A stretch of 64,000 nucleotides of DNA. Source: Pseudonocardia sediminis (lineage in GTDB: Bacteria > Actinomycetota > Actinomycetes > Mycobacteriales > Pseudonocardiaceae). This document shows, piece after piece, positions 21,405-37,196 of this stretch (the first letter of the stretch is position 1; the number at the start of each line of letters is the position of its first letter). A program made the position numbers and the translations under genes. Below the pieces are notes generated by a model. That model searched no databases and was not told where the DNA came from. It was given only the letters and a program-made list of their open reading frames with translations. The stretch spans positions 1,882,001 through 1,946,000 of the forward strand of contig NZ_SHKL01000001.1 in NCBI RefSeq assembly GCF_004217185.1, written 5' to 3'.

Positions 21405-21536
21405 TCAGCGACAGACGTAGCCGGCGATCCGGACCAGGTCGACGTGACGACGCCGGGTCAGACGGTCCCCCGGGGTCGCGGTGACCCGCCCGTGCGGGTC
21501 GGGCGGCAGGTACCGCCTCGGACTCGTCGTCACCAC
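21405..21536 (-). CDS. Putative cysteine-responsive leader peptide upstream of OsmC gene
   Basis: A 43-codon frame ending RRRHVDLVRIAGYVCR and stop. The C-terminal pattern RRHVDLxRxxxxxC is shared with two other peptides in this window (27363-27437 and 29263-29373). It matches the actinobacterial 'putative leader peptide' class found before sulfur genes; related polycysteine uORFs in mycobacteria act as cysteine-sensing attenuators. The penultimate Cys codon fits this. The start is uncertain: GTG 21536, GTG 21533 or a near-cognate CTG at 21461. Too short to be called by length-based gene finders. Confidence 0.65.
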   Translation of the reverse strand: MVTTSPRRYLPPDPHGRVTATPGDRLTRRRHVDLVRIAGYVCR

Positions 21537-22912: not shown

Positions 22913-23152
22913 TCAGCCGGAGACGGCCAGCTCGGTGGTGACCGGGGTGGTGTTGCGGAACAGGTCGAGCACCGGGCAGTGCTCGTCGACCGCGGCGTGG
23001 AGCTGCCGGCACCTCTCGGCCGGGGCCGGGCCGTCCGGGGTCACCTCGACACGGACCTCGCCGAAGACGGGGTGGACGCCGTCGTCGAGGCCGGGGTTCG
23101 TCGACGGCGAGGGTGTGGCGCCCCGCACGAGGAGGGGACCGCCGGTGCTCAT
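22913..23152 (-). CDS. OsmC-like C-terminal fragment protein at end of ABC operon
   Basis: A 79-residue protein overlapping the permease stop by 4 bp (ATGA at 23149-23152). Its C-terminus HCPVLDLFRNTTPVTTELAV matches the last cysteine-containing helix and strand of OsmC proteins, but the N-terminal half with the first cysteine is missing. It may be a remnant of a full OsmC gene or a short dedicated protein. Translational coupling suggests it is still expressed with the transporter. It is the last gene of the leftward sulfur operon. Confidence 0.6.
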   Translation of the reverse strand: MSTGGPLLVRGATPSPSTNPGLDDGVHPVFGEVRVEVTPDGPAPAERCRQLHAAVDEHCPVLDLFRNTTPVTTELAVSG

Positions 23153-24084
23153 CCCGCGACCGGCACCGCGGCGGTGTCGGTGGAGCGCGCCGGAGCCTCG
23201 GTGGGCGCGGCGGCCGGGGCGGCGGCACCCCGGCGCTTGCGCAGCTTCGAGAGCAGGCTCGAGTCCGGGCGGTCGGCCAGGGCCGAGGTGAAGCGGTCGA
23301 GGAAGATCGCCACGATGACGACGGCGAGGCCGCCCTCGAACCCGCCCGCGATGTCGAGGTTGGTCACCGCGCTCACCACGACCGACCCGAGGCCCTCGGC
23401 CCCGGCCAGCCCGGCGACGACGACCATCGACAGCGCCAGCATGATCACCTGGTTGATGCCGGCCATGATCGACGGCAGCGCCATAGGCAGCTGCACCTCG
23501 CGCAGGATCTGGCGGGGGTGCGCACCGAACGCGTGCGCGGCCTCCACCACCTCCGGGTCGACGCCGCGGATGCCCAGCTCGGTCAGGCGCACCGCCGGCG
23601 GGATGGAGAAGATCGTCGTCGCGACGACGCCGGGGACCACGCCGATGCCGAAGAAGAACACCGCCGGGATCAGGTAGACGAACACCGGCGTGGTCTGCAT
23701 CAGGTCCAGCAGCGGCCGCAGCGCGGTGCCGACGGCCTTGCTCCGCGCCGCCCAGATGCCCAGCGGCACACCGATCGCGGTCGCGATCAGCGCCGCGACC
23801 AGCACCAGGCCCAGGGTCTCCATGGTCTCCTGCCACAGGTCGAACGAGGAGACCAGCGCGAACCCGACGAGGGTGAACACGGCGAACCCCGCGCCGCGCA
23901 CGAGCAGCGCGACCACGACCAGGATCACCAGCCACACCCACCACGGCGGGCCGGTGAACACGGCGGTGAGGCCGTCCACGACGACGGTGACGACGGCACC
24001 GATGCCGTCGAGCAGGCCACCGGCGACCTGCAGCAGCCAGAGGACGAACGCCTCGACGTAGCTTCCGAGCTCGAACCTGGGCAT
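23149..24084 (-). CDS. OpuA/ProW-type ABC transporter permease
   Basis: A 311-residue inner-membrane permease with about six helices. The EAA loop conserved for docking to the ATPase is VVEAAHAFGAHPRQILREVQ, followed by LPMALPSIMAGINQVIMLAL, typical of the glycine betaine/proline/choline group. The start overlaps the ATPase stop by one base (TGATG at 24084). The last ~35 residues are an Ala/Pro-rich tail outside the conserved domain. It forms a complete importer with the ATPase and binding protein upstream. Confidence 0.9.
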   Translation of the reverse strand: MPRFELGSYVEAFVLWLLQVAGGLLDGIGAVVTVVVDGLTAVFTGPPWWVWLVILVVVALLVRGAGFAVFTLVGFALVSSFDLWQETMETLGLVLVAALIATAIGVPLGIWAARSKAVGTALRPLLDLMQTTPVFVYLIPAVFFFGIGVVPGVVATTIFSIPPAVRLTELGIRGVDPEVVEAAHAFGAHPRQILREVQLPMALPSIMAGINQVIMLALSMVVVAGLAGAEGLGSVVVSAVTNLDIAGGFEGGLAVVIVAIFLDRFTSALADRPDSSLLSKLRKRRGAAAPAAAPTEAPARSTDTAAVPVAG

Positions 24085-25400
24085 CAGCCGTTCCCGTTCC
24101 GGTCGTGGGTGGACGCGGACAGGGCGTCCTTGGCGTCGGAGTGCGTGGACAGCGCGGCGAGGACGGCGCCGCGCGGGACGACGCCGGTCAGGCGACCGTC
24201 GTCGACGACCGCGAGCGGCACGGGGTTGCGCCCGACCGCGTGCAGCAGGTCGATCAGCGGACGGTCCGGCTCGGTCGTGCGGTACTCCTCGACCAGCGCG
24301 GAGCGGTCGATGCTCGTGACCCCGGTGCTCGCCGCGTGGCCCAGCCAGTCGTCGCGGACCACGCCGAGGATCCGATGCTCGTCGTCGACGACGTAGGCGC
24401 CGGTCGCCTCGGCCTTGCCGAGCCGGACGAGCACGTCGGCGGGCTTCTCGTCGAGCGTCACGGTGATCCGCGGCTCGCGGATGACGTCGGTGGCCGTCAG
24501 CACGCGGCTGCGGTCGACGTCGGAGACGAACTCGGCGACGTAGTCGTCGGCGGGCGAGGCCAGGATCTCCGGGCCGGTGCCGACCTGGACCAGGCGGCCG
24601 TCCTTGAGCAGCAGGATCCGGTCGCCGAGGAGCATCGCCTCGTTGAGGTCGTGGGTGATGAACACGATCGTCTTGCGCAGCTCGCGCTGCAGCCGGACCA
24701 GCAGCTTCTGCATGTCGCGGCGGATCAACGGGTCCAGCGCGGAGTACGGCTCGTCCATCAGCAGGACGTCGGTGTCGCTGGCCAGCGCGCGGGCCAGCCC
24801 GACGCGCTGCTGCATGCCGCCGGAGAGCTGGCCGGGGTAGGCGTCGGCACGGTCACCGAGGCCGACCTGCTCCAGCGCCCACTGCGCGGTCCTGCGGCGT
24901 TCGGCGGCGCCGACCCCGCGGATCTGCAGCCCGTACTCGGCGTTCTGCGCGACGGTGCGGTGCGGGAGCAGGGCGAAGTGCTGGAACACCATGCTCATGC
25001 GCTCGTTGCGCAGCGTGCGCAGGTCGGCGTCGCCGAGCGAGCCGAGGTCGCGGCCGTCCACGTCGATCGTTCCCGAGGTGGGCTCGATCAACCGGTTGAG
25101 CAGCCGGACCAGCGTGGACTTGCCGGACCCGGAGAGGCCCATGATCACGAACAGCTCGCCGGGCGCGATGTCGAACGACACGTCGCTCACGGCCAGCGTC
25201 GCGCCGGTGCGGGACTGGATCTCCTTGCGGCCGACCCCCTCACCGGCCAGCTTGACGGCCTCGTCGGCGCCGGACCCGGAGCCGAACACCTTCGTCAGGT
25301 GGTCGACCCGGATCATCGGGGTCTGCGCCTCACCCTGGGCCTGCGCCCTCACGGCGCCCGACGACCCGTTCGTCGCCGTCTTCTCGTCGACCGTGCTCAT
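24084..25400 (-). CDS. OpuA/ProV-type ABC transporter ATPase with CBS domains
   Basis: A 438-residue ATPase. Walker A is GLSGSGKST (~87-95), the signature LSGGMQQR (~190), and Walker B DVLLMDEPYSALDPLIRRDM (~210-229). The insertion AGEGVGRKEIQSRTGATLAV ahead of Walker A is typical of glycine-betaine transporters (OpuAA/ProV). Two CBS modules fill ~300-425 (VVDDEHRILGVVRDDWLGHA, LAVVDDGRLTGVVPRG); in OpuA these sense ionic strength or c-di-AMP. ATG 25400 overlaps the binding-protein stop by 4 bp. The link to sulfur genes suggests a sulfur-containing betaine analogue as substrate (inference). Confidence 0.92.
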   Translation of the reverse strand: MSTVDEKTATNGSSGAVRAQAQGEAQTPMIRVDHLTKVFGSGSGADEAVKLAGEGVGRKEIQSRTGATLAVSDVSFDIAPGELFVIMGLSGSGKSTLVRLLNRLIEPTSGTIDVDGRDLGSLGDADLRTLRNERMSMVFQHFALLPHRTVAQNAEYGLQIRGVGAAERRRTAQWALEQVGLGDRADAYPGQLSGGMQQRVGLARALASDTDVLLMDEPYSALDPLIRRDMQKLLVRLQRELRKTIVFITHDLNEAMLLGDRILLLKDGRLVQVGTGPEILASPADDYVAEFVSDVDRSRVLTATDVIREPRITVTLDEKPADVLVRLGKAEATGAYVVDDEHRILGVVRDDWLGHAASTGVTSIDRSALVEEYRTTEPDRPLIDLLHAVGRNPVPLAVVDDGRLTGVVPRGAVLAALSTHSDAKDALSASTHDRNGNG

Positions 25401-26338
25401 GCCGCTGCCCCTACCCACTTGCGGACGAGCTCGGGGTGGCGGGCGACGTAGTCGCGGGCCACCTCCTCGACGTCCTCGTTGTCCAGGTCGACCCGCTTCA
25501 ACATCTGCTCGACGTCGGGCACCGGCAGCTCGAAGCGCTGCAGCATCGAGACGAACCGCGGGGCCGATGTCTGGAGTTCCTTGCTGGCGGCGGTCCAGGC
25601 CGCGTAGTCCGGCATGGCGCAGGCGCCGTCACCGGTGTCGAAGCAGCCGTCCTTCGCCGGCGTCGGTTCGTCGAGCTTGGTCATCTCGAACTCTTCGAAC
25701 ACGTAGTGCGGGTGGTAGAGGTAGACCAGGATCGGCGAGCGCCGCTCGTAGGCCCGGCGCAGCTCGGCGAGCTGCGCGGCCTCGCTGGACGACACCTGCT
25801 CCAGGTTGAGCTTGTAGCCGGCGAGACGCTTCGTGTTCTGCTCGGTGGTCAGGAAGCTGGGGTCGGAGTCGATCAGCTTGCCGTCCAGCGCCGCCGCGTA
25901 GTCGTTGAGCTGGGTGACGCTCTTCAGGCCGGCCAGCGGCTGGCCCGGCGCCGTCGCGTAGGTCGGCACGTACCAGCCCTGCTCGGCGCCGCCGTAGGTC
26001 TGGTGGACCATCTCGATCTTCTCCGCGGCCTTGGCCGCGAGCTTCTTCTGGTTCGGCATAGCGACCTCGGAGAGCAGGTCGACGTCGCCGCGCTGGGCCC
26101 CGGCCCACGCCGTCGCCGGGCCCACCTGGATGGTCTTGAACTCGCCCACTCCGAGCCCGGGGTGGCCGGCGACGACCTCGGCGAGGATGGCGTTGGTCAG
26201 CTTCGCCGCGCTCCACGGGAACTGTGCGGCCCGGACGGTGACGCTGTCGTTCGCGCCGGACGCGCCGCACGCGGCCAGCGTCGCGACGGCCAGCACCAGC
26301 GCGAGGACCAGGCGCACGGTGCGGAGGGGTGGTTTCAT
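25397..26338 (-). CDS. OpuAC-type substrate-binding lipoprotein
   Basis: A 313-residue protein with a lipoprotein signal peptide ending in the lipobox LAAC (Cys ~24). The mature domain has the OpuAC pattern: VRAAQFPWSAAKLTNAILAE, then VDLLSEVAMPNQ, and SPILVYLYHPHYVFEEFEMT, with aromatic residues (Trp, Tyr, Phe) that in the family form a cage around a quaternary ammonium group. It is 9 bp downstream of tauD. A sulfonium such as dimethylsulfoniopropionate or a taurine derivative would fit both the cage and the sulfur context; this is a hypothesis. Confidence 0.87.
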   Translation of the reverse strand: MKPPLRTVRLVLALVLAVATLAACGASGANDSVTVRAAQFPWSAAKLTNAILAEVVAGHPGLGVGEFKTIQVGPATAWAGAQRGDVDLLSEVAMPNQKKLAAKAAEKIEMVHQTYGGAEQGWYVPTYATAPGQPLAGLKSVTQLNDYAAALDGKLIDSDPSFLTTEQNTKRLAGYKLNLEQVSSSEAAQLAELRRAYERRSPILVYLYHPHYVFEEFEMTKLDEPTPAKDGCFDTGDGACAMPDYAAWTAASKELQTSAPRFVSMLQRFELPVPDVEQMLKRVDLDNEDVEEVARDYVARHPELVRKWVGAAA

Positions 26339-26347
26339 CGGGTGAAC

Positions 26348-27256
26348 CTACTGTCCGAAGTCGGTGGTGCGCAGCACCTCGACGCCGAGGGGACCGTCCC
26401 CGCGCAGCGTTACGCGGTGCATCACGCGCCGCGCGTCGCCGTAGTCGCGGTTCGCGTAGTGCGCCGTCGAGCGGTTGTCCCACATCGCGACGTCGCCCTC
26501 GGCCCACCGGTGCCGGACGATGTGTTCGGGCTTGGTGAGGTGGGCGTAGAACAGGTCCAGCAGGTACCGGCTCTCCGCGTCCGACACCCCGACGATGCGG
26601 GTGGTGAAGCCCGGGTTCACGAACAGCGACTTGCGGCCGGTCTCCGGGTGCACCCGGACCACGGGGTGCACGACCGGCTCCAGCATGGTGACCGTCTCGC
26701 CCTCCCACTCGCTGCCCTGGCCCTGCTGGCGCTGCAGGAGGCGCTCGCCGAAGTCGCGGAAGCCGTCGTGCTCGGCGGAGAGCTCGTCGGCCAGGCGTTG
26801 CACGGCGGGGGAGAGCGAGGCGTAGGCGAGCTCCAGGTCGGCCCAGTTCGTGTCGCCCCCCGAGGGCGGCAACGTGACCGCGCGCAGGATCGAGCCCAGC
26901 GGCGGGCGCTTCATGAACGTGACGTCGGTGTGCCAGACGTCGGAGAAGCCGTCGTCGGCGCTGTCGAGGGCGTAGATCTCGGTGTGCGCGTCGTCGATGC
27001 CGGGGACGACCGGATGCGACGCCGTCAGCTCCCCGAGCCGGTTGCCCAGGCGCACCTGCGCGTCCGGGTCGAGGGTCTGGCCGCGGAAGAACAGCACCTT
27101 GTGCGCCGTGAGCGCGGCACGCACGTCGGCGACGACCGTGTCGTCGGCGGTGGCCAGGTCGAGGCCGTGCACGAGCGCGCCGAAGCCGGGGCCGAGCGGC
27201 TCCAGGTCGAGCGAGCCGGTTCGCGGACCGGAAGCGGACAGGGTGGCGCTGGACAT
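26348..27256 (-). CDS. TauD/TfdA family Fe(II)/2-oxoglutarate dioxygenase
   Basis: A 302-residue oxygenase. The iron ligands are visible as WHTDVTF (~108-114, His-X-Asp) and the distal His near residue 278 in ARRVMHRV; the 2-oxoglutarate-binding Arg follows in the same block. NRSTAHYANRDYGDARR is typical of taurine dioxygenase relatives, which oxidise the carbon next to a sulfonate to release sulfite. ATG 27256 has GAGGAG upstream. It is the first gene after the leader peptide at 27363-27437 and is followed by an ABC importer. The real substrate may be another sulfonate or sulfate ester. Confidence 0.9.
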   Translation of the reverse strand: MSSATLSASGPRTGSLDLEPLGPGFGALVHGLDLATADDTVVADVRAALTAHKVLFFRGQTLDPDAQVRLGNRLGELTASHPVVPGIDDAHTEIYALDSADDGFSDVWHTDVTFMKRPPLGSILRAVTLPPSGGDTNWADLELAYASLSPAVQRLADELSAEHDGFRDFGERLLQRQQGQGSEWEGETVTMLEPVVHPVVRVHPETGRKSLFVNPGFTTRIVGVSDAESRYLLDLFYAHLTKPEHIVRHRWAEGDVAMWDNRSTAHYANRDYGDARRVMHRVTLRGDGPLGVEVLRTTDFGQ

Positions 27257-27362
27257 GGAGGCTCCTCGGACGTGCGGGCAGACGTGACCCGGGTCGGACA
27301 CACGACTCCCGCGGGATCGGACGGGGGAGGGGTCGCCGTCGGCAGGATCCGGACGGCGGGCG

Positions 27363-27437
27363 TCAACGACAGGTGTAGCCCGCGGTCCTCATGAGGTCGA
27401 CGTGACGACGGCACGTCAGGTTCCGGGCGCCGGGCAT
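27363..27437 (-). CDS. Putative cysteine-responsive leader peptide upstream of tauD operon
   Basis: A 24-residue peptide starting MPGARNLT at ATG 27437 and ending CRRHVDLMRTAGYTCR. It sits in the 231-bp gap between the desulfurase-like gene and tauD, all on the minus strand. The RRHVDLxR core and a Cys codon one before the end match the actinobacterial sulfur leader-peptide class. In that class, ribosome stalling at Cys codons under cysteine shortage relieves downstream attenuation. It is therefore a likely internal control point inside the leftward operon. Confidence 0.75.
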   Translation of the reverse strand: MPGARNLTCRRHVDLMRTAGYTCR

Positions 27438-27487: not shown

Positions 27488-28864
27488 TCACGCTGCGCCG
27501 CAGCGTTGCGTACCCACCGGACCGGCCAGGCCGAGCGGGTCGGCGTCGCGCGGGTCCGGGGTCGGCGCCCACCGGCCGTCGACGACGGCGTAGTCCCAGC
27601 GGGGCCCCTCGGCGACGAGCGCGGTCAGGGCGGAGAGGAGACGGTCGACGTCCTCGGCGGTGCTGCCCAGGCCGAGGCTGGCGCGCACGGCGTTCCCGTC
27701 GCCGGCCCCGTCCCCGCCGTCGGCGAGCCGGGCCAGCAGCGGGTGCGCGCAGAAGCGGCCGTCCCGGACCCCGATCCCGTGCTCGGCCGACAGGTACGCC
27801 GCGACCAGCCCGGCCGGGACGCCGTCGACGACGAAGCTCGCGACCGCCACCCGGTCCGGGGAGTCGTTCCAGATGCGCAGCGACGTGACGCCGTCGATCG
27901 CGTCGAGCCCGTCGGTGAGGCGGGTGAGCAGGGCGCGTTCGTGGGCGGGGGCGACCTCGTCCAGCAGGGGTGCGAGGGTCCGGCAGGCCGCCGCGAGCGC
28001 GGCGGCGCCGAGGACGTTCGGGGTGCCGGCCTCGTGCCGGTGCGGAGCGGGCGCCCACGCGGCCTCGGCGGTCGTCCCGTGGATGCCGACGTGGGCGACG
28101 GCACCGCCGCCGGCCAGGTGCGGCGCGGCCTCGTCGAGCCAGTCCCGGCGCCCGACGAGGGCGCCCGTGCCGTAGGGCGCGTAGAGCTTGTGCCCGGACA
28201 GGGCCACGTAGTCCGCGCCCCAGGCGGCGAGGTCGATGCGGCGGTGCGGTGCGGTCTGCGCGGCGTCGACGACGACGCGGGTGCCGTAGGCGTGGGCGAT
28301 GTCGACGACCTGCGCGATCGGGAGCGTCTCGCCGGTGACGTTGGAGGCACCGGTGACGGCGAGCAGCGCGAAGGAGCCGCGGGCCAGCGCGTCGTCGACG
28401 GCGGCGAGCGTCGCGTCGACGCCGGCGCGGGCCGCGATCACCCGCGAACCGGGCCGGGACTGCCAGGGCAGCAGGTTCGCGTGGTGCTCCACGTCGAGGG
28501 TCAGCACCGGGCCGGGGACGCAGGAGGCGAGCAGGTTCAACGAGTCCGTGGTGTGGCGGGTGAACACCGTGACGTCGCCCGGGCGGGCGCCGACGAACTC
28601 CGCGACGGTCGTCCGGGCCGCCTCCAGCACGCGGGTGCACACCTGGGAGGCGTAGCCGGCGCCGCGGTGGACGCTCGCGTACCAGGGAAGCAGGGCGTTC
28701 ACCTCGTCGGCGACGGCCTGCAGGGCGGGCGCGCTCGCGGCGACGTCGAGGTTGGCGTAGCGCACGCAGCGGCCGTCGACGAGCGGGACCTGCAGGTCGG
28801 CTCCGACGACGGAGGGAAGGTCCACGGCGGTCGCGGCGGGGGCGGTGGCAAGGGCGTGGGACAT
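27488..28864 (-). CDS. PLP-dependent aminotransferase class V / cysteine desulfurase-like protein
   Basis: A 458-residue fold-type I PLP enzyme. VVDAAQTAPHRRIDLAAWGA contains the PLP-contacting Asp, and ALSGHKLYAPYGTGALVGRR holds the Schiff-base lysine (~residue 223). RFCAHPLLARL carries a cysteine where SufS-type enzymes have the catalytic loop Cys, though loop identity is uncertain. ATG 28864 follows GAGGAA. A SAM-IV riboswitch lies in its 5' leader. It may release sulfur from cysteine or a related thiol compound. An EgtE-like C-S lyase is an alternative. Confidence 0.83.
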   Translation of the reverse strand: MSHALATAPAATAVDLPSVVGADLQVPLVDGRCVRYANLDVAASAPALQAVADEVNALLPWYASVHRGAGYASQVCTRVLEAARTTVAEFVGARPGDVTVFTRHTTDSLNLLASCVPGPVLTLDVEHHANLLPWQSRPGSRVIAARAGVDATLAAVDDALARGSFALLAVTGASNVTGETLPIAQVVDIAHAYGTRVVVDAAQTAPHRRIDLAAWGADYVALSGHKLYAPYGTGALVGRRDWLDEAAPHLAGGGAVAHVGIHGTTAEAAWAPAPHRHEAGTPNVLGAAALAAACRTLAPLLDEVAPAHERALLTRLTDGLDAIDGVTSLRIWNDSPDRVAVASFVVDGVPAGLVAAYLSAEHGIGVRDGRFCAHPLLARLADGGDGAGDGNAVRASLGLGSTAEDVDRLLSALTALVAEGPRWDYAVVDGRWAPTPDPRDADPLGLAGPVGTQRCGAA

Positions 28865-28891
28865 GGCGGTTCCTCGGGTCGATCAGGACCC

Positions 28892-28924
28892 TCAGACGTG
28901 CCGACGGGTCCGCGCTTGCCGCAC
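28892..28924 (-). other. Micro-ORF ending RTRRHV, degenerate leader peptide candidate
   Basis: Between the SAM-IV aptamer and the start of the desulfurase-like gene lies a GTG-initiated 10-codon frame, MRQARTRRHV and stop. It retains the nucleotide block CCCGTCGGCACGTC that encodes RRHV in the full leader peptides but stops just before DL and the Cys codon. It may be a decayed leader or a conserved RNA element. Translation is unproven. Confidence 0.3.
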
Positions 28925-28943
28925 GCGGGTGTCGCGCCGGCCC

Positions 28944-29021
28944 GGTCCTCACCCGGAGCACCCCACCGCGGAGGAGGGTTGCCGGCCAGCGAGCCGGGGC
29001 TTGACGCTGGCGCTCATGACC
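28944..29021 (-). promoter_or_regulatory. SAM-IV riboswitch
   Basis: Read on the minus strand from 29021, the sequence begins GGTCATGAGCGCCAGCGTCA, continues AGCCCCGGCTCGCTGGCCGG, CAACCCTCC and GCGGTGGGGTG, and ends GGTGAGGACC. This follows the actinobacterial SAM-IV consensus almost base for base, including the closing GGTC/GACC stem. It binds S-adenosylmethionine and normally turns off sulfur genes when SAM is plentiful. It starts within a base or two of the predicted transcription start from the promoter at 29030-29059 and ends 79 bp before the desulfurase-like start. Confidence 0.93.
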
Positions 29022-29029
29022 TGGCGGTG

Positions 29030-29059
29030 AAGTTACGAGCGCGTGATCGCCGATGTCAA
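29030..29059 (-). promoter_or_regulatory. Promoter for the leftward sulfur operon
   Basis: On the minus strand, TTGACA (29059-29054), an 18-bp spacer and TAACTT (29035-29030). It is a near-consensus housekeeping promoter. The expected start, around 29022-29024, coincides with the 5' end of the SAM-IV aptamer, which supports both calls. Confidence 0.75.
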
Positions 29060-29105
29060 GTGCGTGGGGCCGGGGCGTCGCGCATCACGTTCTTCATCGG
29101 AAGTG

Positions 29106-29136
29106 TTGACAGGCGACGGGAGTGGCTACCTAGAGT
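29106..29136 (+). promoter_or_regulatory. Promoter for the rightward sulfur operon
   Basis: TTGACA at 29106-29111 and TAGAGT at 29131-29136 with a 19-bp spacer. The predicted start (~29143) lies about 15 bases before the SAM-I aptamer. The -35 box is perfect but the spacer is one or two bases long. The divergent promoter's -35 box lies 46 bp away. Confidence 0.6.
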
Positions 29137-29157
29137 CGTGTCAGTACCCGATCACGG

Positions 29158-29240
29158 GTGCGCACCATCCAGAGCGGCCGAGAGACCTGGCTCGTCGACG
29201 CCGCAGCAACCCCCCGCATCCCGCGGGTGCGGGTGCTCAC
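29158..29240 (+). promoter_or_regulatory. SAM-I (S-box) riboswitch
   Basis: The core ATCCAGAGCGGCCGAGAGAC, then CTGGCTCGTCGACGCCGCAG and CAACC, follows the S-box consensus (AGAG..GG..GAGGGA..GG..GA..CC..GCAACC). The P1 stem pairs GTGCGCACC (29158-29166) with GGTGCTCAC (29232-29240) with one mismatch. A hairpin CCCGCA...TGCGGG after the CAACC fits P3. It binds SAM and would repress the downstream operon when SAM is high. The leader-peptide start codon lies 22 bp after it, so control may act on translation or on termination. Confidence 0.88.
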
Positions 29241-29262
29241 GCCGGGACCGATGGGGGGATCG

Positions 29263-29373
29263 ATGAACGGAAACGCGGTGCGCGTGCCGTCCGTCGACCG
29301 CGCCTCCTTCCACGGGCGCTGCCGTCGTCACGTGGATCTCCTGCGCGTCACCAGCGCGGCCTGTCCGGCCTGA
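29263..29373 (+). CDS. Putative cysteine-responsive leader peptide behind the SAM-I riboswitch
   Basis: A 36-residue peptide starting MNGNAVRVPSVDRASFHG at ATG 29263, with GGGGGG about 5-10 bases upstream. It ends CRRHVDLLRVTSAACPA. The RRHVDLxR core and a Cys codon near the stop match the two other leader peptides in this window. It lies between the SAM-I aptamer and the first monooxygenase gene (start 29443). The arrangement places a SAM sensor and a probable cysteine sensor in series on one transcript. Confidence 0.75.
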   Translation: MNGNAVRVPSVDRASFHGRCRRHVDLLRVTSAACPA

Positions 29374-29442
29374 CCGCCCCGGACCGGCCCCACCACCCGC
29401 AGTAGGCGGCGCCCCGCGCGCCGCAGGAAGCGGTCACCACCC

Positions 29443-30654
29443 ATGTCCACTTCGGACCACCTTCGTCTCGCCGTCGCGCTGAGCGACGCCGGATGGCACC
29501 CCGCCGCCTGGCGCGAGGCCGACGCCCGCCCCGGTGAGCTGTTCACCGCCCGTTACTGGGCCGACCTCGCGGCGATCGCCGAGCGCGGCCTGCTCGACCT
29601 GATCACGATCGAGGACGGGTTCGGACTGCAGTCGACCGATCACCTCGCGGAGTCCGACCGGCGCACCGACCAGGTGCGCGGGCGGCTCGACGCGCATCTC
29701 GTCGCGGCCCTGCTCGCGCCCCTGACCAGCAGGATCGGACTCGTCCCCACCGTCACCACGACGCACACCGAGCCGTTCCACGTCGCGAACGCGCTCGCCA
29801 CGCTCGACCACGACAGCCTCGGCCGCGCCGGGTGGCGGGTGCAGGTCTCGGCCCGCGCCGACGAGGCGCGCCACCTCGGGCGTCGCGCCCTGCCCGGCGT
29901 CCGCCGCGAGCACCTGGACACCCCGGAGACCGCCCGGGTCGTGCAGGAGCTCTTCGACGAGGCCGCGGACGCCGTCGAGGTCGCGCGCCGGCTCTGGGAC
30001 AGCTGGGAGGACGACGCGGAGATCCGCGACGACGCCACCAACCGCTTCGTCGACCGGGACAAGCTGCACTACATCGACTTCTCCGGGGACCACTTCGACG
30101 TCCGCGGGCCCGCGATCACCCCGCGCCCGCCGCAGGGGCATCCGCTGGTCACCGTGCTCGCGCACCGCGAGGTGCCCTACCGCCTCGCCGCCCGCTCCGC
30201 CGACGTCGTGTTCGTGACCCCGCAGGACGTGGACGACGTCGCGTCGGTGATCGGTGACGTGCGCGCCGCGGAAGCGGCGGTCGGACGAGAGGGGGAGCCG
30301 CTGCGGATCCTCGGCGACCTGGTGGTCCTGCTCGACCACACGCAGGCCGCGGCGCAGGAGCGCCTGGCCCGCCTCGACGCCCGCGACCCGCTGCGCTCCG
30401 ACGCCGCGATCCTCGCCACCACCCCGTCCGACCTGGCCGACCTGCTGGTCGCCTGGCACGAGGCCGGCCTCGACGGCTTCCGCCTGCGCCCGGGCGTCCT
30501 CCCCGACGACCTGAACGCAATCGCCGACGCGCTCGTCCCCGAGCTGCAGCGCCGCGGCGCGTTCCGCACCGCCTACGACGACACCACCCTGCGCGAGCGG
30601 TTCGGGCTCTCCCGCCCGGCCAGTCGCTACGCCACCGCCGGGAGCACCGCATGA
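29443..30654 (+). CDS. LLM class flavin-dependent monooxygenase
   Basis: A 403-residue luciferase-like monooxygenase with a TIM-barrel pattern: YWADLAAIAERGLLDLITIE, then HTEPFHVANALATLDHDSLG and AGWRVQVSARADEARHLG. Family members use FMNH2 from a partner reductase to oxygenate carbon next to sulfur or nitrogen. It overlaps the next monooxygenase by 4 bp (ATGA at 30651-30654). It is the first full gene after the SAM-I and leader-peptide control region. A flavin reductase gene is not present, so reduced flavin must come from elsewhere. Confidence 0.87.
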   Translation: MSTSDHLRLAVALSDAGWHPAAWREADARPGELFTARYWADLAAIAERGLLDLITIEDGFGLQSTDHLAESDRRTDQVRGRLDAHLVAALLAPLTSRIGLVPTVTTTHTEPFHVANALATLDHDSLGRAGWRVQVSARADEARHLGRRALPGVRREHLDTPETARVVQELFDEAADAVEVARRLWDSWEDDAEIRDDATNRFVDRDKLHYIDFSGDHFDVRGPAITPRPPQGHPLVTVLAHREVPYRLAARSADVVFVTPQDVDDVASVIGDVRAAEAAVGREGEPLRILGDLVVLLDHTQAAAQERLARLDARDPLRSDAAILATTPSDLADLLVAWHEAGLDGFRLRPGVLPDDLNAIADALVPELQRRGAFRTAYDDTTLRERFGLSRPASRYATAGSTA

Positions 30655-32027
30655 CCCGCAAGCAGATCATCCTCGGGGCGTACTTCCCCGGCGTGAACCA
30701 CGACACCGTCTGGAGCGACCCCGCCTCCGGGAGCCACATCGACTTCGCCTCGTTCGCGCACTGGGCCCGCACCGCCGAGCGCGGCAAGCTGGACCTGCTG
30801 TTCCTCGCCGAGGGCCTGCGCCTGCGCGACCGCGGGGGCGCGATCTTCGACCAGGACGTCGTCGGGCGTCCGGACACGTTCACCGTGCTCGCCTCGCTGG
30901 CCGCGATCACCTCGCACATCGGCCTGGCCGGGACGATCAACTCCACCTACAACGAGCCCTACGAGCTGGCGCGCAAGTTCGCGACGCTGGACCTGCTCTC
31001 CGGCGGCCGCGCCGCCTGGAACGTCGTGACCAGCTCGGACGCCGACACCGGCGAGAACTTCCGGCGCGGCGGGTTCCTCGGGCACCACCAGCGCTACTCC
31101 CGGGCCCGCGAGACGCTCGAGCTCGTCCGCCGGCTGTGGGACTCCTGGGGTTCCGACGCGGTCGTCGCCGACAAGGACGCCGCCCGGTTCCTGCGCGACG
31201 GCGACGTCGGGGACTTCGCGTTCTCCGGCGAGCAGTTCGACGTCTCCGGCCGGTTCACCACCCCGCGCAGCCCGCAGGGGCACCCGGTGATCCTGCAGGC
31301 CGGGGAGTCGCCGTCCGGCCGGGACTTCGCCGCCGCGCACTCGGACGCGATCTTCTCCCGCTACCAGAAGTTCGACGAGGCCAAGGCGTTCTACGACGAC
31401 GTCAAGTCCCGCGTCGCGAAGGCCGGCCGCAACCCCGACGAGGTGAAGATCCTCCCGTCGGCCGCGGTCGTCCTCGGCGACACCCTCGACGAGGCCCGGG
31501 ACCGCCACGCCGAGATCCACCACCGCCAGGTGGACCCGCAGACCGCGATCGTCCTGGCCGAGATGGTCTGGAACCGCGACCTGTCCCGCGTCGACCCGGA
31601 CGGCCCGGTGCCCGACCTCGACCCCACCCCGGACGCGCCCAAGTGGATCCGCGGGCGTGCTCCGCTGACCCAGGACGCACACGCCACCGCGGCCGCCTGG
31701 CGCGAGCTGGGCCGGGAGAAGAACCTGAGCCTGCGAGAGGTGGTCAAGCACGTGTTCGATCGCGCCGTGTTCGTCGGGACGCCGGAGTCGGTGGCCGACG
31801 AGATCGACCGCTACGTCCGCGACGGGGCCACCGACGGCTTCATCGTCGGCTCGCACGTGAGCCCGTCCGGGCTCGACGAGTTCGTCGACCGGGTCGTGCC
31901 GCGGCTCGTCGACCGCGGGGTGTTCCGCTCGGAGTACGCCGGCGCCACGCTGCGCGACAACCTCGGCCTCGCTCCACCCGCGCGGTTCGGCGAGCCTCGC
32001 CGGCACGACTCGTCGGTGGCGTCGTGA
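30651..32027 (+). CDS. NtaA/SnaA/DszA family FMN-dependent monooxygenase
   Basis: A 458-residue protein of the group that includes nitrilotriacetate monooxygenase NtaA and dibenzothiophene-sulfone monooxygenase DszA. Signature stretches are SGGRAAWNVVTSSDADTGEN (with the NVVTS motif), HQRYSRARETLELVRRLWDS and PQGHPVILQAGESPSGRDFA. These enzymes cleave C-S or C-N bonds with FMNH2 and oxygen. Four-base overlaps with both neighbours (ATGA before, GTGA after) show tight operonic coupling. The actual sulfur substrate is not known; sulfones or S-substituted cysteines are plausible. Confidence 0.9.
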   Translation: MTRKQIILGAYFPGVNHDTVWSDPASGSHIDFASFAHWARTAERGKLDLLFLAEGLRLRDRGGAIFDQDVVGRPDTFTVLASLAAITSHIGLAGTINSTYNEPYELARKFATLDLLSGGRAAWNVVTSSDADTGENFRRGGFLGHHQRYSRARETLELVRRLWDSWGSDAVVADKDAARFLRDGDVGDFAFSGEQFDVSGRFTTPRSPQGHPVILQAGESPSGRDFAAAHSDAIFSRYQKFDEAKAFYDDVKSRVAKAGRNPDEVKILPSAAVVLGDTLDEARDRHAEIHHRQVDPQTAIVLAEMVWNRDLSRVDPDGPVPDLDPTPDAPKWIRGRAPLTQDAHATAAAWRELGREKNLSLREVVKHVFDRAVFVGTPESVADEIDRYVRDGATDGFIVGSHVSPSGLDEFVDRVVPRLVDRGVFRSEYAGATLRDNLGLAPPARFGEPRRHDSSVAS

Positions 32028-33622
32028 AGCGGGGATGCGCCGTCGCGGCCCTCGCCACGACCGCCGCGCTGACGCTGTCCGCGTGCGGCTCGGGCAGCGG
32101 GGGCGCGGGCGCCGACGCGGGCCCGCCCCGTCCCGGCGGGACGCTGACGTTCGCCGTCTCCAGCGACCAGGGATGCGCCGACCCGCAGCAGGTGACCAGC
32201 AACGACTCCGTCTACTCGGTCCGCCAGATCGTCGACTCGCTGACCGACCAGGACCCGGCCACCGGTGACATCAAGCCCTGGCTGGCCACCAGCTGGAAGG
32301 TCAACGCCGACGCCACGTCCTACGACTTCACGCTGCGCCCGGGCGTCACGTTCAGCGACGGGACGACGCTCGACGCGAACGCGGTCAAGGCCAACCTCGA
32401 CCGGGTGCCGAAGATCGGGGCCCGGGGGAGCCTGCCCAAGGGCTACCTCTCCGGCTACCAGGGCACCACGGTGACGAGCCCGACGACGTTCACCGTCCGG
32501 TTCGCCCAGCCCAACGTGCAGTTCCTGCAGGCCACGTCCACGTACAGCCTCGGGATCCTGGCGCCGTCGAGCGTCGCGAAGACCGACGACGAGCGCTGCA
32601 CCGGCGTCATCGGGTCCGGCCCGTTCGTGCTGGAGAGCTACACCAAGAACGACTCCACGGTCCTGACCAAGCGTGCCGGGTACGACTGGGGCTCGTCGCT
32701 GTTCACCCACCCCGGCGAGGCCTACCTCGACCGGGCCGAGTTCCGCGTCGTGCCCGAGTCCGGCGTGCGCACCGGCAGCCTGCAGTCCGGTGAGGTCGAC
32801 GCGATCGCGAGCATCGGCCCGCAGGACGAGGCGCCGTTGAGCGGGGCCGGGGTCGACCTGCCCGCCCGGGCCAACCCCGGCCTGCCGTTCGGGATCGCGT
32901 TCAACCAGGCGAGCCCGCTCGGCAGCGACCCGGCGGTGCGCGAGGCCGTCTCGCTCGGGATCAACCGGCCCGAGGTCGTGAGCGCGGTGTTCACGTCCCA
33001 GACCAAGCCCGCAACCAGCGTCCTGGCCTCCAGCACGCCGGAGTACGTGGACAACAGCGCGCTGCTCGGGTTCGACGCCGCCCGCGCCGGCACCGTGCTC
33101 GACGCCGCCGGATGGCGGGCCGGGCCGGACGGGATCCGGGTGAAGAACGGGCAGAGGCTCACCGTGCCGATCACGTTCGCGAACAACCTCTCGACCGTGA
33201 AGCCCGCGCTGGAGCTGATCCAGCAGCAGCTGCGCGCCGTCGGGATCGACGCCCAGCTCAAGGAGATCCAGATCTCCGACGCGCCGGTGGTCCAGCAGAG
33301 CGGTGACTTCACGGCGTTCTGGGGCAACCTGACCCGCGCCGACCCGGACATCCTGCGCAGCCAGTACTGGACCGGGGGCACGAACTTCTACCGGGTGAAG
33401 CCCGGCCCGCTGGACGCCCTGCTCACCGGTCAGGCCGCGGCCACCGACCCGGCGCAGCGCACGGCACTGGTGGACCAGGCGCAGAAGTCGATGATCACCC
33501 AGCGCCTCAACGTCCCGGTGGTCGAGCTGACCACGACGCTCGGCGTCGGTCCGGCCGCGCACGACGTGGCGTTCGACGCGTCGTCGCGGATCCAGCTCCA
33601 CGACACCTGGAAGTCGGAGTAA
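32024..33622 (+). CDS. Peptide-type ABC transporter substrate-binding lipoprotein (SBP_bac_5)
   Basis: A 532-residue binding protein starting at GTG 32024, which overlaps the preceding stop. The signal peptide ends in the lipobox LSAC (Cys ~20). The mature part follows the DppA/OppA pattern: PGGTLTFAVSSDQGCADPQQ near the start, then KPWLATSWKVNADATSYDFT, LRPGVTFSDGTTLDANAVKA and GSGPFVLESYTKNDS. It delivers peptides, nickel chelates or other bulky ligands to the permeases encoded just downstream. In this setting a sulfur-containing compound is expected. Confidence 0.92.
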   Translation: MKRGCAVAALATTAALTLSACGSGSGGAGADAGPPRPGGTLTFAVSSDQGCADPQQVTSNDSVYSVRQIVDSLTDQDPATGDIKPWLATSWKVNADATSYDFTLRPGVTFSDGTTLDANAVKANLDRVPKIGARGSLPKGYLSGYQGTTVTSPTTFTVRFAQPNVQFLQATSTYSLGILAPSSVAKTDDERCTGVIGSGPFVLESYTKNDSTVLTKRAGYDWGSSLFTHPGEAYLDRAEFRVVPESGVRTGSLQSGEVDAIASIGPQDEAPLSGAGVDLPARANPGLPFGIAFNQASPLGSDPAVREAVSLGINRPEVVSAVFTSQTKPATSVLASSTPEYVDNSALLGFDAARAGTVLDAAGWRAGPDGIRVKNGQRLTVPITFANNLSTVKPALELIQQQLRAVGIDAQLKEIQISDAPVVQQSGDFTAFWGNLTRADPDILRSQYWTGGTNFYRVKPGPLDALLTGQAAATDPAQRTALVDQAQKSMITQRLNVPVVELTTTLGVGPAAHDVAFDASSRIQLHDTWKSE

Positions 33623-33625
33623 CCC

Positions 33626-34567
33626 ATGGCGGTCTATCTCCTGCGGCGCGTCGCGCTCGCCGTCGGCGTCCTGTGGGCGGCGTACACGGTGTCGTTCGTG
33701 GTGCTCTACCTGCTGCCCGGCGACCCCGTCGCGACCATGGCGGCCGGCGGGGACGGTGAGCCGGTCAGCCCGGCCGAGCTGGACGCGCTGCGCGCCCGGT
33801 ACGGGCTCGACCAGCCGCTGATCGTGCAGTACGGGACGAAGCTCTGGGCGGCGCTGCAGGGCGACTTCGGCCGGTCGTTCGCGACCGGGCAGGACGTGAG
33901 CTCGGCGATCGGCGAGGCGCTGCCGTCGACGCTGCAGATGTCGCTGTGCGGGCTGCTGGTCGCGATCGTGTTCGGCTCCGCCGTCGCACTGACCGCGACC
34001 TACACCCGGTCGCGCTGGCTGCGGCAGGTCCTGATGGGTCTGCCGTCGCTGGCGGTGTCGCTGCCGGTGTTCTGGGTCGGGCTGATGCTGGTGCAGCTGT
34101 TCTCGTTCCGGCTGGGGCTGCTGCCCTCGGTCGGTGCCCGCGGGCCGGAGGCGCTGGTGCTGCCGGCGATCACCCTCGGCCTGCCCACCGGCGCGCTGAT
34201 CGCGCAGGTGCTGGCCAAGTCCATGAGCCAGGCCCTCGACGAGCCCTACGTGACGACGGCGCGGGCCAAGGGCGTCGGTGAGGCCGGCGTCCACCTGCGG
34301 CACGCCCTGGGCAACGCCGTGATCCCGGCGCTGACGGTGTTCGGCTACGTCGTCGGGAACCTGCTCGCCGGCTCGGTCGTGGTGGAGACCGTGTTCACCC
34401 GTCCCGGCCTGGGTCGGTTGACCGTGTCCTCGGTCGGGGTGCAGGACATCCCGGTCGTGCAGGGCATCGTCGTGTTCGCCGCGTTCGTCTTCGTGCTGGT
34501 CAACCTCGCCGTCGACCTGATCTATCCCGTGCTCGACCCGCGTATCGCGACCGGAGCTGCACTGTGA
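33626..34567 (+). CDS. Peptide-type ABC transporter permease (DppB-like)
   Basis: A 313-residue membrane protein with six helices. It opens with the DppB-type LLRRVALAVGVLWAAYTVSF and LYLLPGDPVATMA. The EAA-loop region is YVTTARAKGVGEAGVHLRHA, the docking site for the ATPase. It starts 3 bp after the binding-protein gene and overlaps the second permease by 4 bp (ATGA-type overlap with GTG start at 34564). Confidence 0.92.
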   Translation: MAVYLLRRVALAVGVLWAAYTVSFVVLYLLPGDPVATMAAGGDGEPVSPAELDALRARYGLDQPLIVQYGTKLWAALQGDFGRSFATGQDVSSAIGEALPSTLQMSLCGLLVAIVFGSAVALTATYTRSRWLRQVLMGLPSLAVSLPVFWVGLMLVQLFSFRLGLLPSVGARGPEALVLPAITLGLPTGALIAQVLAKSMSQALDEPYVTTARAKGVGEAGVHLRHALGNAVIPALTVFGYVVGNLLAGSVVVETVFTRPGLGRLTVSSVGVQDIPVVQGIVVFAAFVFVLVNLAVDLIYPVLDPRIATGAAL

Positions 34568-35487
34568 CCGAACTCTTGGTTCGTGAGACCTCGCCGCCGG
34601 ACGGGACCACCCCCGGGACGACGGTCGCCGTGCCCGTCCCGGCCACCCCGCGCGAGCGGGCGGCCCGGCTGGGCCGGTTCCTGCGCGTCCGTCCCGGGCT
34701 CGTCGCCTCGGCCGTGTACGTGGTGCTGGTGCTGGTCGCGGCGTTCGCGCCGTCGGTGCTCGCCCCCGGTGACCCGACGATCGGCGTCCCCGGCGACAAG
34801 CTGCTGCCCCCGGGCACCGCCGGACACCTGCTCGGCACCGACTACCTGGGTCGGGACGTCTGGACCCGGGTCGTGCACGGCGCGTCGCTGTCGTTGCAGG
34901 CCACCGTGATCGCGGTCGCCGTCGCGCTCGTCGTCGGCGGTCTGATCGGCCTGCTGGCCGGGTTCGTCGGGCGCTGGGTGGACGAGACGCTGATGCGGTT
35001 CGTCGACGTGCTGCTGGCCATCCCGGCGATCCTGCTGTCGCTGGCGCTGATCACCGCGCTCGGCTTCGGCACGATCAACGTGGCGATCGCGGTGGGCATC
35101 GCGAGCGTCGCGAACTTCGCCCGGGTGATGCGCGCGGAGACGTTGCGGATCCGGCGCTCCACCTACGTCGAGGCGGCCCGCTCGGTCGGCACCCGCTGGT
35201 ACGTGACGCTGCGGCGGCACGTGCTGCCCAACGCCGCCGGGCCGGTCCTGGTGCTGGCCGTGCTGGAGTTCGGCCTGGCGATCCTGGCCGTGTCGTCGCT
35301 GAGCTTCCTCGGCTACGGCGCGCCGCTGCCGACCCCGGAATGGGGCTCGCTGGTGGCCGAGGGCCGCAACTACCTGGCAGGAGCGTGGTGGCTGTGCGCG
35401 ATTCCCGGGTTCGTGATCGCGGCCACCGTGCTGTCGGTGAACCGGATCTCCCGGGCCCTGGACGGGGAGTGGGCGAGGTCGGCATGA
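34564..35487 (+). CDS. Peptide-type ABC transporter permease (DppC-like)
   Basis: A 307-residue permease starting at GTG 34564. The DppC signature LLGTDYLGRDVWTRVVHGAS lies at ~residues 90-109. The EAA loop is STYVEAARSVGTRWYVTLRR. The N-terminal ~40 residues are a Pro/Arg-rich cytoplasmic extension before the first helix. It overlaps the ATPase gene by 4 bp (ATGA at 35484-35487). Confidence 0.92.
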   Translation: MTELLVRETSPPDGTTPGTTVAVPVPATPRERAARLGRFLRVRPGLVASAVYVVLVLVAAFAPSVLAPGDPTIGVPGDKLLPPGTAGHLLGTDYLGRDVWTRVVHGASLSLQATVIAVAVALVVGGLIGLLAGFVGRWVDETLMRFVDVLLAIPAILLSLALITALGFGTINVAIAVGIASVANFARVMRAETLRIRRSTYVEAARSVGTRWYVTLRRHVLPNAAGPVLVLAVLEFGLAILAVSSLSFLGYGAPLPTPEWGSLVAEGRNYLAGAWWLCAIPGFVIAATVLSVNRISRALDGEWARSA

Positions 35488-37196
35488 GTGCCCCGAAGAA
35501 CGCGACGGCGATACTGCAGGTCAGTGACCTGGAGGTGACCTATCGGGCCACCGGCGGGCGAATCCACGCCCTGCGCGGGATCGACCTGGAGGTGGCGCCC
35601 GGCGAGGTCGTCGCCGTGGTGGGGGAGTCGGGGTCGGGCAAGTCGACGCTGGCCCAGGCCGTCGTCGGTCTGCTGCCGGTGAACGGTGCCGTCGGCGCCG
35701 GGACGATCCGGCTCGCCGGCGACGAGCTCACCGGCCTGTCCGAGAAGGCGCTGCGGACGGTCCGCGGCCGGAAGGTCGGGCTGATCCCGCAGGATCCGAC
35801 GGTCTCGCTGAACCCGGTGCAGAAGATCGGCGCCCAGGTCGCCGAGGCGCTGCGCGTGCACGGGCTCGCGGACCGGCGCGGCGCGCGGATCAAGGCCGTC
35901 GAGCTGCTCGAACGCGCCGGGCTCCCGGAGCCGGCGACACGCGCCGGGCAGTACCCGCACGAGCTCTCCGGCGGCATGCGGCAACGCGTGCTGATCGCCG
36001 TCGCGATCGCCGCCGACCCCGGCCTGCTGATCGCCGACGAGCCCACCAGCGCCCTCGACGCCACCGTGCAGCGCCGCATCCTCGACCACCTCGACGCCCT
36101 GCGCGCCGAGACCGGCAGCGCGCTGCTGCTGATCACCCACGACCTCGCCGTCGCCGCCGACCGAGCCGACCGGATCGTCGTCATGTCCGGCGGGCGCATC
36201 GTGGAGCAGGGGCCGGTCGACGAGATCCTGCACCGCGCCCGCGACCCGTACACCCGCGCCCTGATCGGGGCCGCGCCCGGACTGTCCGCGACCGCGGCCG
36301 TCCCGCCCCCACCGCCGAAGGAACCGGACGCGGACTCGCCCTCGGGGCCGATCGCCGAGGTGCGGAACCTGGTCAAGGACTTCCGCCTGCCCCGGGCCGC
36401 CGGGCGGCGCGCGACGCTGCGCGCCGTCGACGACGTCTCGTTCACGATCGGGCGCGGGGAGACCCTGGCGCTGGTCGGGGAGTCCGGGTCGGGCAAGTCG
36501 ACCACCGCGCGGCTGCTGCTGCGCCTGGCCGACCCCACCTCCGGCGAGGTGATCTTCGACGGCGACGACATCACCCGCGTCAAGGGCGACGCCTGGCGGA
36601 GGCTGCGCCGCCGTGCGCAGCTGATCTACCAGAACCCGTACGCCTCGCTGGACCCGCGCTTCACCGTCGAGCAGGTGATCACCGAGCCGCTGCAGGCGTT
36701 CGGTGTCGGCTCGGACGCCGAGCAGCGGGAACGGGCCGCGGAGCTGGTCGGGCGGGTCGCGCTGCCGTCCTCGGTGTTGCAACGCCGGCCGGTGGAGCTC
36801 TCCGGCGGGCAGCGCCAGCGGATCGCGATCGCCCGCGCGCTGGCCCTGTCCCCGGACCTCGTGGTCTGCGACGAGCCGGTCTCCGCGCTCGACGTGTCGG
36901 TGCAGGCCCAGGTGCTGGCGTTGCTCGGGGAGCTGCAGGCGCAGGGCGGGCTGAGCTACCTGTTCATCTCGCACGACCTGGCCGTCGTCCGGCGGATCGC
37001 GCACCGCGTCGGGGTCATGCGTGACGGCAGGCTTCTCGAGCTGCGGCCCACCGAAGAGCTGTTCGACGCCCCCCGCGAGGAGTACACGCGCGACCTGCTG
37101 GCCGCGATCGCCGGTCGGGGTCACTCGGTGTCGAGGGCGGCGGTGTCGAGGGCGGCGGTGTCGACGGCGGCGGTGTCGGAGGTGGTGGGCGGATGA
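35484..37196 (+). CDS. Fused dual ATPase of peptide-type ABC transporter (DppD-DppF)
   Basis: A 570-residue protein with two complete nucleotide-binding domains. Domain 1 has Walker A GESGSGKST (~47), signature LSGGMRQR (~165) and Walker B LLIADEPTSALDATVQRR. Domain 2 starts at ~residue 290, with Walker A GESGSGKST (~332), LSGGQRQRIAIARALAL (~438) and VVCDEPVSALDVSVQAQ. Thus both halves of the transporter motor are in one chain. The C-terminal ~17 residues are Ala/Val/Ser repeats encoded by the 15-bp tandem repeat at 37128-37185. It overlaps the following monooxygenase by 4 bp. Confidence 0.93.
   Translation: MSAPKNATAILQVSDLEVTYRATGGRIHALRGIDLEVAPGEVVAVVGESGSGKSTLAQAVVGLLPVNGAVGAGTIRLAGDELTGLSEKALRTVRGRKVGLIPQDPTVSLNPVQKIGAQVAEALRVHGLADRRGARIKAVELLERAGLPEPATRAGQYPHELSGGMRQRVLIAVAIAADPGLLIADEPTSALDATVQRRILDHLDALRAETGSALLLITHDLAVAADRADRIVVMSGGRIVEQGPVDEILHRARDPYTRALIGAAPGLSATAAVPPPPPKEPDADSPSGPIAEVRNLVKDFRLPRAAGRRATLRAVDDVSFTIGRGETLALVGESGSGKSTTARLLLRLADPTSGEVIFDGDDITRVKGDAWRRLRRRAQLIYQNPYASLDPRFTVEQVITEPLQAFGVGSDAEQRERAAELVGRVALPSSVLQRRPVELSGGQRQRIAIARALALSPDLVVCDEPVSALDVSVQAQVLALLGELQAQGGLSYLFISHDLAVVRRIAHRVGVMRDGRLLELRPTEELFDAPREEYTRDLLAAIAGRGHSVSRAAVSRAAVSTAAVSEVVGG
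37128..37185. repeat. 15-bp tandem repeat at the 3' end of the ATPase gene
   Basis: Three near-perfect copies of GTGTCGAGGGCGGCG and a decayed fourth. They encode Val-Ser-Arg-Ala-Ala units at the extreme C-terminus. The unit is in frame, so copy number can vary without truncation. Confidence 0.85.

Follow-up and report, generated by a model that had tools for sequence, protein, structure and literature searches.

An Rfam cmscan of the window (the whole 64-kb stretch of DNA analysed here) returned exactly two matches, a SAM-IV aptamer on the minus strand and a SAM-I match on the plus strand, which are divergently oriented and separated by a gap of 140 bp (Table 1). Both score above the Rfam gathering thresholds of their families, in agreement with a sequence-only reading of this DNA that had placed a SAM-IV and a SAM-I riboswitch back to back about 140 bp apart. 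That reading had the presence and the strand of each aptamer right and their limits wrong: SAM-IV, put at 28944-29021, extends through a 3' hairpin and tail to 28907, and SAM-I, put at 29158-29240, is given by Rfam as 29162-29257. When 28800-29460 was rescanned permissively against Rfam (E <= 1), the same two aptamers and no others were obtained. The proposal that each aptamer is served by its own near-consensus promoter also holds, as the pattern TTGACAN{17,19}TANNNT matches only twice in the 64 kb, at these two predicted promoters, versus a mean of 0.01 matches in 100 dinucleotide shuffles, none of which reached two. A generic sigma-70 scan, which requires a spacing of 16-18 nt and at least 4/6 matches to TATAAT, picked up neither promoter. 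A search of 28700-29500 for intrinsic terminator-like sites found none.

Table 1. Features of the divergent control region and of the two operons (positions are those of the window)
Feature	Position	Strand	Basis
OpuAC-type binding protein, ABC ATPase with CBS-like domain, permease	23149-26338	-	domain scan
TauD/TfdA-type dioxygenase	26348-27301	-	PF02668; longest ORF, real start possibly more internal
Second leader ORF, MPGARNLTCRRHVDLMRTAGYTCR, between the aminotransferase and TauD genes	27363-27437	-	NF042934, 25.4 bits (cut-off 27)
Class-V aminotransferase, first minus-arm gene	27488-28864	-	PF00266
Putative SAM-IV expression platform, inverted repeat GGGTC...GACCC just before SD GAGG	28865-28906	-	by eye
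SAM-IV aptamer	28907-29021	-	RF00634, 99.1 bits (gathering 38), full model, positions 1-116
Predicted minus-arm promoter, TTGACA-N18-TAACTT	29030-29059	-	pattern search
Predicted plus-arm promoter, TTGACA-N19-TAGAGT	29106-29136	+	pattern search
P4-less SAM-I-type aptamer	29162-29257	+	RF00162, 49.5 bits (gathering 44.4), full model
Leader ORF, 36 aa, MNGNAVRVPSVDRASFHGRCRRHVDLLRVTSAACPA, last Cys codon TGT	29263-29373	+	NF042934, 24.8 bits (cut-off 27)
Two luciferase-type (flavin-dependent) monooxygenases, first plus-arm genes	29443-32027	+	PF00296 twice
ABC transporter (SBP_bac_5, two permeases, double ATPase) and third luciferase-type monooxygenase	31136-38431	+	domain scan

The two aptamers had been described as unrelated. 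This is incorrect because Rfam places RF00162 and RF00634 in one clan, CL00012, with a SAM-binding core and pocket in common; the earlier reading of the sequence is right, and its class contrast is overstated. The architecture around the aptamers is more interesting than the mixed pairing itself. What had been overlooked is that a Cys-type leader ORF, not an enzyme gene, lies directly behind the plus-strand switch, and that a second leader ORF lies within the minus-strand operon.

The minus-strand aptamer is the only SAM-IV match in the entire 6.6-Mb genome to which the window belongs (hereafter the own genome). Its Rfam alignment contains the P5 hairpin and, past P1, the 3' tail strand of PK-2; by eye, CCGCG of P3 is a possible pairing partner for the tail GCGCGG. 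The inverted repeat of the expression platform adjoins the SD, which suggests translational control of this arm. Within this platform, GGACCC of the aptamer tail is a possible competitor for GGGTCC, and similar GGGTCC/GGACC-like arms beside the SD were seen by eye in four other loci (L040, L046, L049 and L051). As for the aminotransferase that follows, its subtype, cysteine desulfurase, is a guess. A third leader ORF (21405-21485, minus strand, its start read as GTG) ends RRHVDLVRIAGYVCR and is found upstream of an OsmC-type gene (approximately 20620-21108, minus strand), at a site with no SAM aptamer.

The plus-strand RNA has the P1 helix, P2 with its internal loop, P3 and the L2-J3 pseudoknot of SAM-I. 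P4 is a feature of SAM-I, P5 and PK-2 are features of SAM-IV, and this RNA has none of the three; its Rfam alignment has 2 nt in place of 18 positions at P4. We refer to it as a P4-less SAM-I-type aptamer of the clan because P4 is absent, and for the same reason, the lack of a canonical SAM-I helix, its binding of SAM is an assumption. The SAM-I/IV variant (RF01725) gave no match at E <= 0.001 in 40 genomes.

Forty short RNAs of this type, from 21 of 40 genomes of the genus Pseudonocardia that were searched, were aligned (alignment A1), and 32 of them pass the RF00162 gathering threshold. The cells of P2 are paired at 100% and 95.8%, those of P3 at 97.5% and those of the pseudoknot at 100%. 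All five pseudoknot pairs form in 40/40 RNAs, with two-sided changes at two of them (UA six times and GC twice; AU once), and the pseudoknot is separated from P1 by only 2-4 nt. Within P1, the inner five pairs form in 39-40 of the 40 RNAs and the outer three in 8, 23 and 10; the outer three would cover the remainder of the SD, and solely the inner 5 bp are reliable. Of the A1 cells, 91.5% are paired overall, versus 48.1% in a slid control (-3 columns). The covariation score of the whole structure is 0.061, above that of all shuffles and barely above the 0.058 of the slid control.

The 3' strand of P1, GATGGGGG (29250-29257), is at the same time the SD of the leader ORF. An aptamer helix thus overlaps the SD of the next ORF, as in a translational riboswitch, and that next ORF is the leader. 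Its ATG begins five bases past the P1 strand, its peptide ends RRHVDLLRVTSAACPA, and 69 nt separate its stop codon from the start of the first monooxygenase gene. Farther downstream, the binding-protein gene lies inside a long ORF (31136-33622) and has a more internal start. The plus-strand leader also matches, weakly, a family of Cys-rich leader peptides in NCBIfam. Both window peptides fall below the NF042934 cut-off. Ten further leaders were scanned with this model: four passed, including the SAM-I-gated L021 and L059, and two, both outside the genus (L072 and L062), had no match at all. Of the nine scanned leaders from Pseudonocardia, all have an NF042934 match at E <= 1, and three score above the cut-off.

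Searching the first 40 genomes of the genus with RF00162 yielded 78 matches, 38 long (66-87 bits) and 40 short (31-61 bits), and all of the short sites and six of the long ones were compared. The leader motif is present behind 36 of the 40 short sites as scored by script and behind 37 as scored by eye (L052 added). In 37 of the 40 the leader ORF begins with a start codon 3-7 nt past P1, and the P1 3' strand of these short sites ends AGG, GAG or GGG after GATGG. None of the six long, high-scoring sites examined has a leader; a large ORF follows there immediately. A model free of leader sequence (R1) was then run over the whole genus (62 genomes, E <= 1e-9), giving 72 short sites spread over 38 genomes. 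Among the 32 sites that had not been used for building R1, a leader was found in 22 by script and in 27 by eye, those in L195, L199, L205, L208 and L212 having been added by hand, which brings the genus total to 58/72 by script and 64/72 by eye. The leaders recognised by eye have a variant motif (RRRVVDF in L052, RRHVDY in L199, RRVVDL in L212) or a different start, the script having chosen another one in L195 and the start lying 10-11 nt past P1 in L205 and L208. Eight of the 72 sites lack a leader by either count: L022, L031, L036, L214 (its leader-like ORF about 50 nt past P1 was excluded from the count) and four sites with a large ORF of 313-424 codons 4-5 nt past P1, namely the first site of L191, the plus site of L196, L197 and the minus site of L206. 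L197 is one of the four close divergent pairs described below.

The motif is also tied to position. In both strands of the loci of the first 40 sites (307,870 bases), R[RLH]H[VL]D[LF] matches 43 times; 34 of these matches have a SAM-I P1 on their own strand and lie at most 130 nt 3' of it. The second SAM-I of a tandem accounts for two of the nine others (L022, L026). Of the seven left, six fall on the other strand, and the match in L005 is the leader-only ORF of L015. Given their position, their conservation and the held-out sites, we reject a chance origin of the leader ORFs. Gated leaders are followed chiefly by monooxygenase, ABC-transporter and oxidoreductase genes, together with some that have no clear role in sulfur metabolism (GNAT, DUF1684). 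The distance from the leader stop to the start of the following gene is 42-142 nt, with no overlap, in 15 loci examined. Tandem short SAM-I sites on one strand, about 0.75-1.3 kb apart, occur in L022, L026 and L191; the leader lies behind the second aptamer and not the first in L022 and L191, and behind both in L026.

The conserved C-terminal end of the leader reads RRHVDLxRxxxAxC, with UGU as its last Cys codon. R-x-H-V-D-L keeps its first Arg, its His and its Asp in all 36 leaders aligned, with varied codons; this Arg is encoded by CGC, CGG, CGT or CGA. The last conserved Cys is TGT in 33/33 leaders of the first set, and a Cys seven residues before it, where present, is TGC in 17/17. The codon table omits the four of the 40 sites in which the motif is absent (L022, L031, L036 and L052); L025 stops before the Cys position, and L028 and L041 have Gly and Ser there. 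As background, the large coding-like ORFs of the same loci have 103 TGC versus 6 TGT codons (6/109), and the TGT:TGC ratio in the window genes is 1:33. The 22 further sites positive by script were scored as 20 TGT and two TGC; the TGC of L201 directly precedes a TGT, and L203 is a real exception. The leaders contain one or few Cys codons and no run of them.

The own genome has four SAM-I matches. The strongest (75 bits) is immediately upstream of a large ORF that looks like thrC by eye, and the gene behind the long SAM-I sites is tentatively labelled thrC. For S. lividans, a SAM riboswitch is listed upstream of threonine genes (PMC8079986, accessible part). The remaining three own-genome matches are short, and a leader ORF lies behind each. 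The RRHVDL pattern has 13 matches in this genome versus three with the reversed control, and 10 of the 13 are leader-like by reading frame (L011, L012 and L017 are not). Seven of these leaders have no SAM-I, and their last Cys is also TGT. The nearest coding-like ORFs behind these riboswitch-free leaders are a sulfite/nitrite-reductase-type gene (L016), a Cys/Met PLP enzyme (L007), an OsmC gene (L008), a TauD gene (L009), luciferase-type monooxygenases (L013 and L015) and one ORF without a Pfam match (L006). A second divergent region, L005/L015 at about 4.4995 Mb, has a short SAM-I with a leader on one arm and, on the L015 arm, a leader-only ORF upstream of a luciferase-type gene.

Two candidate links between leader and operon found no support. 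In the first, prompted by CUCCUGCG / CGCAGGA in the window, leader codons would pair with the SD of the downstream gene; the duplexes were no better than those of codon-shuffled leaders, the share of shuffles that were equal or better being 0.14-0.95 among the 35 of 40 sites with a pickable next gene, for some of which the rule-picked start is possibly wrong. The second was a conserved hairpin, located either at the stop codon of the leader or upstream of the gene; the folds of 15 leader-gene intervals differ and show no obvious common hairpin. Minimum-energy folds of the two window leaders were not better than those of shuffles (z 0.62 and -0.41); single-sequence folding is uninformative for such GC-rich RNA with pseudoknots.

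The same divergent pair was looked for in relatives, as had been suggested earlier. SAM-IV occurs in 46 of the 62 genus genomes, and in four of the 62 (G000, G332, G331 and G706) it forms a close divergent pair with SAM-I (< 250 bp); the SAM-IV of G706 is weak (65 bits), and its pair has no leader. Looser divergent pairs, 0.7-3 kb apart, are present in six more genomes (G318, G693, G330, G696, G326 and G298), and a SAM-I sits between the pair in G702. No close pair was seen in 42 of the 46 SAM-IV genomes, many of whose assemblies are fragmented. An orthologue of the aminotransferase lies on the SAM-IV side in L040, L045, L046, L049, L051, L193, L196 and L200; L039 (G331) has a luciferase-type gene on the SAM-IV side and a DAO-type gene on the SAM-I side. 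Divergent SAM-I/SAM-I pairs exist too, in G692, G702 and G653, which together with the 42 genomes lacking a close pair does not sustain the view of mixed classes as a distinctive regulatory design. The SAM-IV/SAM-I pair is a recurrent arrangement of a minority of genomes. Divergent SAM-I/SAM-I pairs 119-175 bp apart were noted in L091, L206 and L196, L091 being outside the genus.

We consider it fairly probable that the window contains two operons, both probably sulfur-related and both repressed by SAM, the plus arm through a SAM-gated leader followed by a second sensor. SAM bound to SAM-IV would act on the minus arm, repressing the operon of the class-V aminotransferase, with translation initiation as the probable step. 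On the plus arm, the SAM-bound aptamer would stabilise P1 and hide the SD, and translation of the leader would stop; at low SAM the leader would be translated. The conserved leader end would then act as the second sensor, most likely of cysteine supply, and ribosome pausing or coupling at the leader would decide expression of the monooxygenase/ABC-transporter operon, with Rho-dependent termination or translational coupling as leading candidates for this step. The parts of this scheme differ in standing. The predicted aptamers and promoters, the identity of P1 with the SD, the assignment of this SD to the leader and the conservation of the leader are supported by comparison, and the step in which SAM would shut off leader translation has good comparative support. 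SAM binding by the plus-strand RNA and the resulting occlusion of the SD are presumed; that the leader senses cysteine or a related signal is a likely reading, and the way in which it would control the operon is conjectural. Cysteine is suggested as the second signal by the family of the leader, by its codon signal and by part of the downstream genes, and the sulfur context includes the leader-only copies upstream of the sulfite/nitrite-reductase-type gene and the Cys/Met PLP enzyme. We further propose, tentatively and with slightly more doubt than conviction, that a genus-wide module may exist in which a P4-less SAM switch gates a cysteine-sensing peptide (one invariant rare UGU, conserved nascent chain) and the operon is on only when SAM and cysteine are both low.

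Other explanations deserve consideration. The leader might be a mere relay of translation that blocks Rho or ferries ribosomes and senses nothing, comparable to uPPE2 of the M. tuberculosis B12 switch. Riboswitch uORFs have indeed been tied to termination-reinitiation or Rho in the accessible parts of two reports (PMC11260477, PMC12810186), and neither the SD-pairing test nor the folds of 15 loci revealed a cysteine-dependent structure. However, the C-terminal sequence and one UGU are conserved in the genus and in the seven riboswitch-free own-genome leaders, and such conservation exceeds what a bare relay needs; moreover, at least 42 nt, with no overlap, lie between leader stop and next start in the 15 loci. 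We regard a mere relay as rather unlikely. More doubtful still is direct action of the SAM-I-type RNA on the operon, by transcription termination or at the RBS of an enzyme gene, with the short ORF incidental or a defunct leader. This arrangement would resemble that of other families, in which such switches stand directly before large ORFs (L063, L067, L069, L075 and L092; enzyme- or transporter-like by eye), and that of the few genus sites of this kind (first site of L191, plus site of L196, minus site of L206, and L197). Against it, the region is without a terminator-like site, the start 3-7 nt past P1 opens the leader in 37/40 sites with the next gene beginning 42-142 nt past the leader stop (15 loci), and the peptide end is conserved despite synonymous codon change.

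The sequence-only reading had itself favoured a functional design in which one metabolite runs both arms through two unrelated aptamer classes. Even though close divergent pairs recur in 4/62 genomes and looser ones in six more, both aptamers are of one clan, 42/46 SAM-IV genomes have no close pair, and the partner genes vary, as in L039; we find this design very improbable.

In M. tuberculosis, the B12 riboswitches of metE and ppe2 have uORFs, and the pe20 Mbox has the uORF rv1805A (PMC11260477, PMC12810186). As far as the accessible text of these sources goes, these are likewise actinobacterial translational OFF riboswitches that control or interact with a small upstream ORF; there, however, the ligands are B12 and Mg2+, and the uORFs are described neither as Cys-type leaders nor as a module repeated across operons. 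A Xanthomonas SAM-I riboswitch additionally senses uncharged initiator tRNA (PMC7270179) and is similar, in the accessible text, in being a translational switch with a second, aminoacylation-related signal; the tRNA binds the expression platform directly, whereas in Pseudonocardia a translated leader would be the second sensor. The SAM-II switch of Sinorhizobium metA hides an SD away from the true gene start (PMC9373788), and so, as in our case, a SAM switch covers an SD that does not adjoin the true start of the gene. It differs in its aptamer class and in its in-frame downstream AUG start, and a Cys-type leader is not mentioned in the part of that source available. For S. lividans, SAM-IV upstream of a cysteine-desulfurase gene has already been listed (PMC8079986, accessible part).

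The Cys-rich leader peptide families NF042934, NF042933 and NF042936, like the Pseudonocardia leaders, consist of short ORFs of actinobacteria in which Cys codons lie close to the stop. Polycysteine uORFs were reportedly described in M. smegmatis by Canestrari in 2020. Leaders of cys operons in actinobacteria are also short ORFs with Cys codons near the stop (PMC1262725, accessible part). The Pseudonocardia leaders differ in having one or few Cys codons, a conserved RRHVDL block, a last Cys that is UGU only (first set) and a SAM riboswitch in front. A literature search, in which most subscription papers were outside reach, found no SAM riboswitch with a Cys-type leader as the first regulated ORF. 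SAM riboswitch and Cys-type leader are each known. If the proposed reading is true, two points of one pathway would be combined on a single transcript, in a natural two-input series circuit (aptamer, then ribosome) with a new SAM-aptamer architecture, the riboswitch-uORF theme of M. tuberculosis would be widened, and dozens of natural variants would be on offer for tests. With a last Cys codon that is UGU in genomes that otherwise use UGC, codon-specific or nascent-chain sensing can be put to a direct test.

Beyond the genus, R1 was run on 394 genomes of the class with stricter filters and gave 27 rows of at least 61 bits. A leader-like ORF follows P1 in six of these 27 strong matches: L059 and the first site of L088 (family f8), L061 and L062 (other genera of the own family), and L066 and L072 (family f49). 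In many of the others (for example, in family f18) P1 is directly followed by a large ORF, and a few show nothing clear. The ORFs of L066 and L072 end in another block, DCMRxxSxxC, with the last Cys again TGT; NCBIfam does not recognise the L072 peptide. A set of 80 orthologues of the first monooxygenase, from which the own genome is possibly missing, has SAM-I directly upstream in one case (L108, P. sp. KRD291) and a leader-like motif, by a loose regular expression, upstream in 10, L108 included. Judged from this loose expression, the leader may be older and the aptamer a later addition. At one of these orthologues, in Rhodococcus aetherivorans (L157), the luciferase-type gene is followed after about 3 kb by a strong P4-less SAM-I match (87.5 bits, 7080-7167) that is truncated at the end of the locus.
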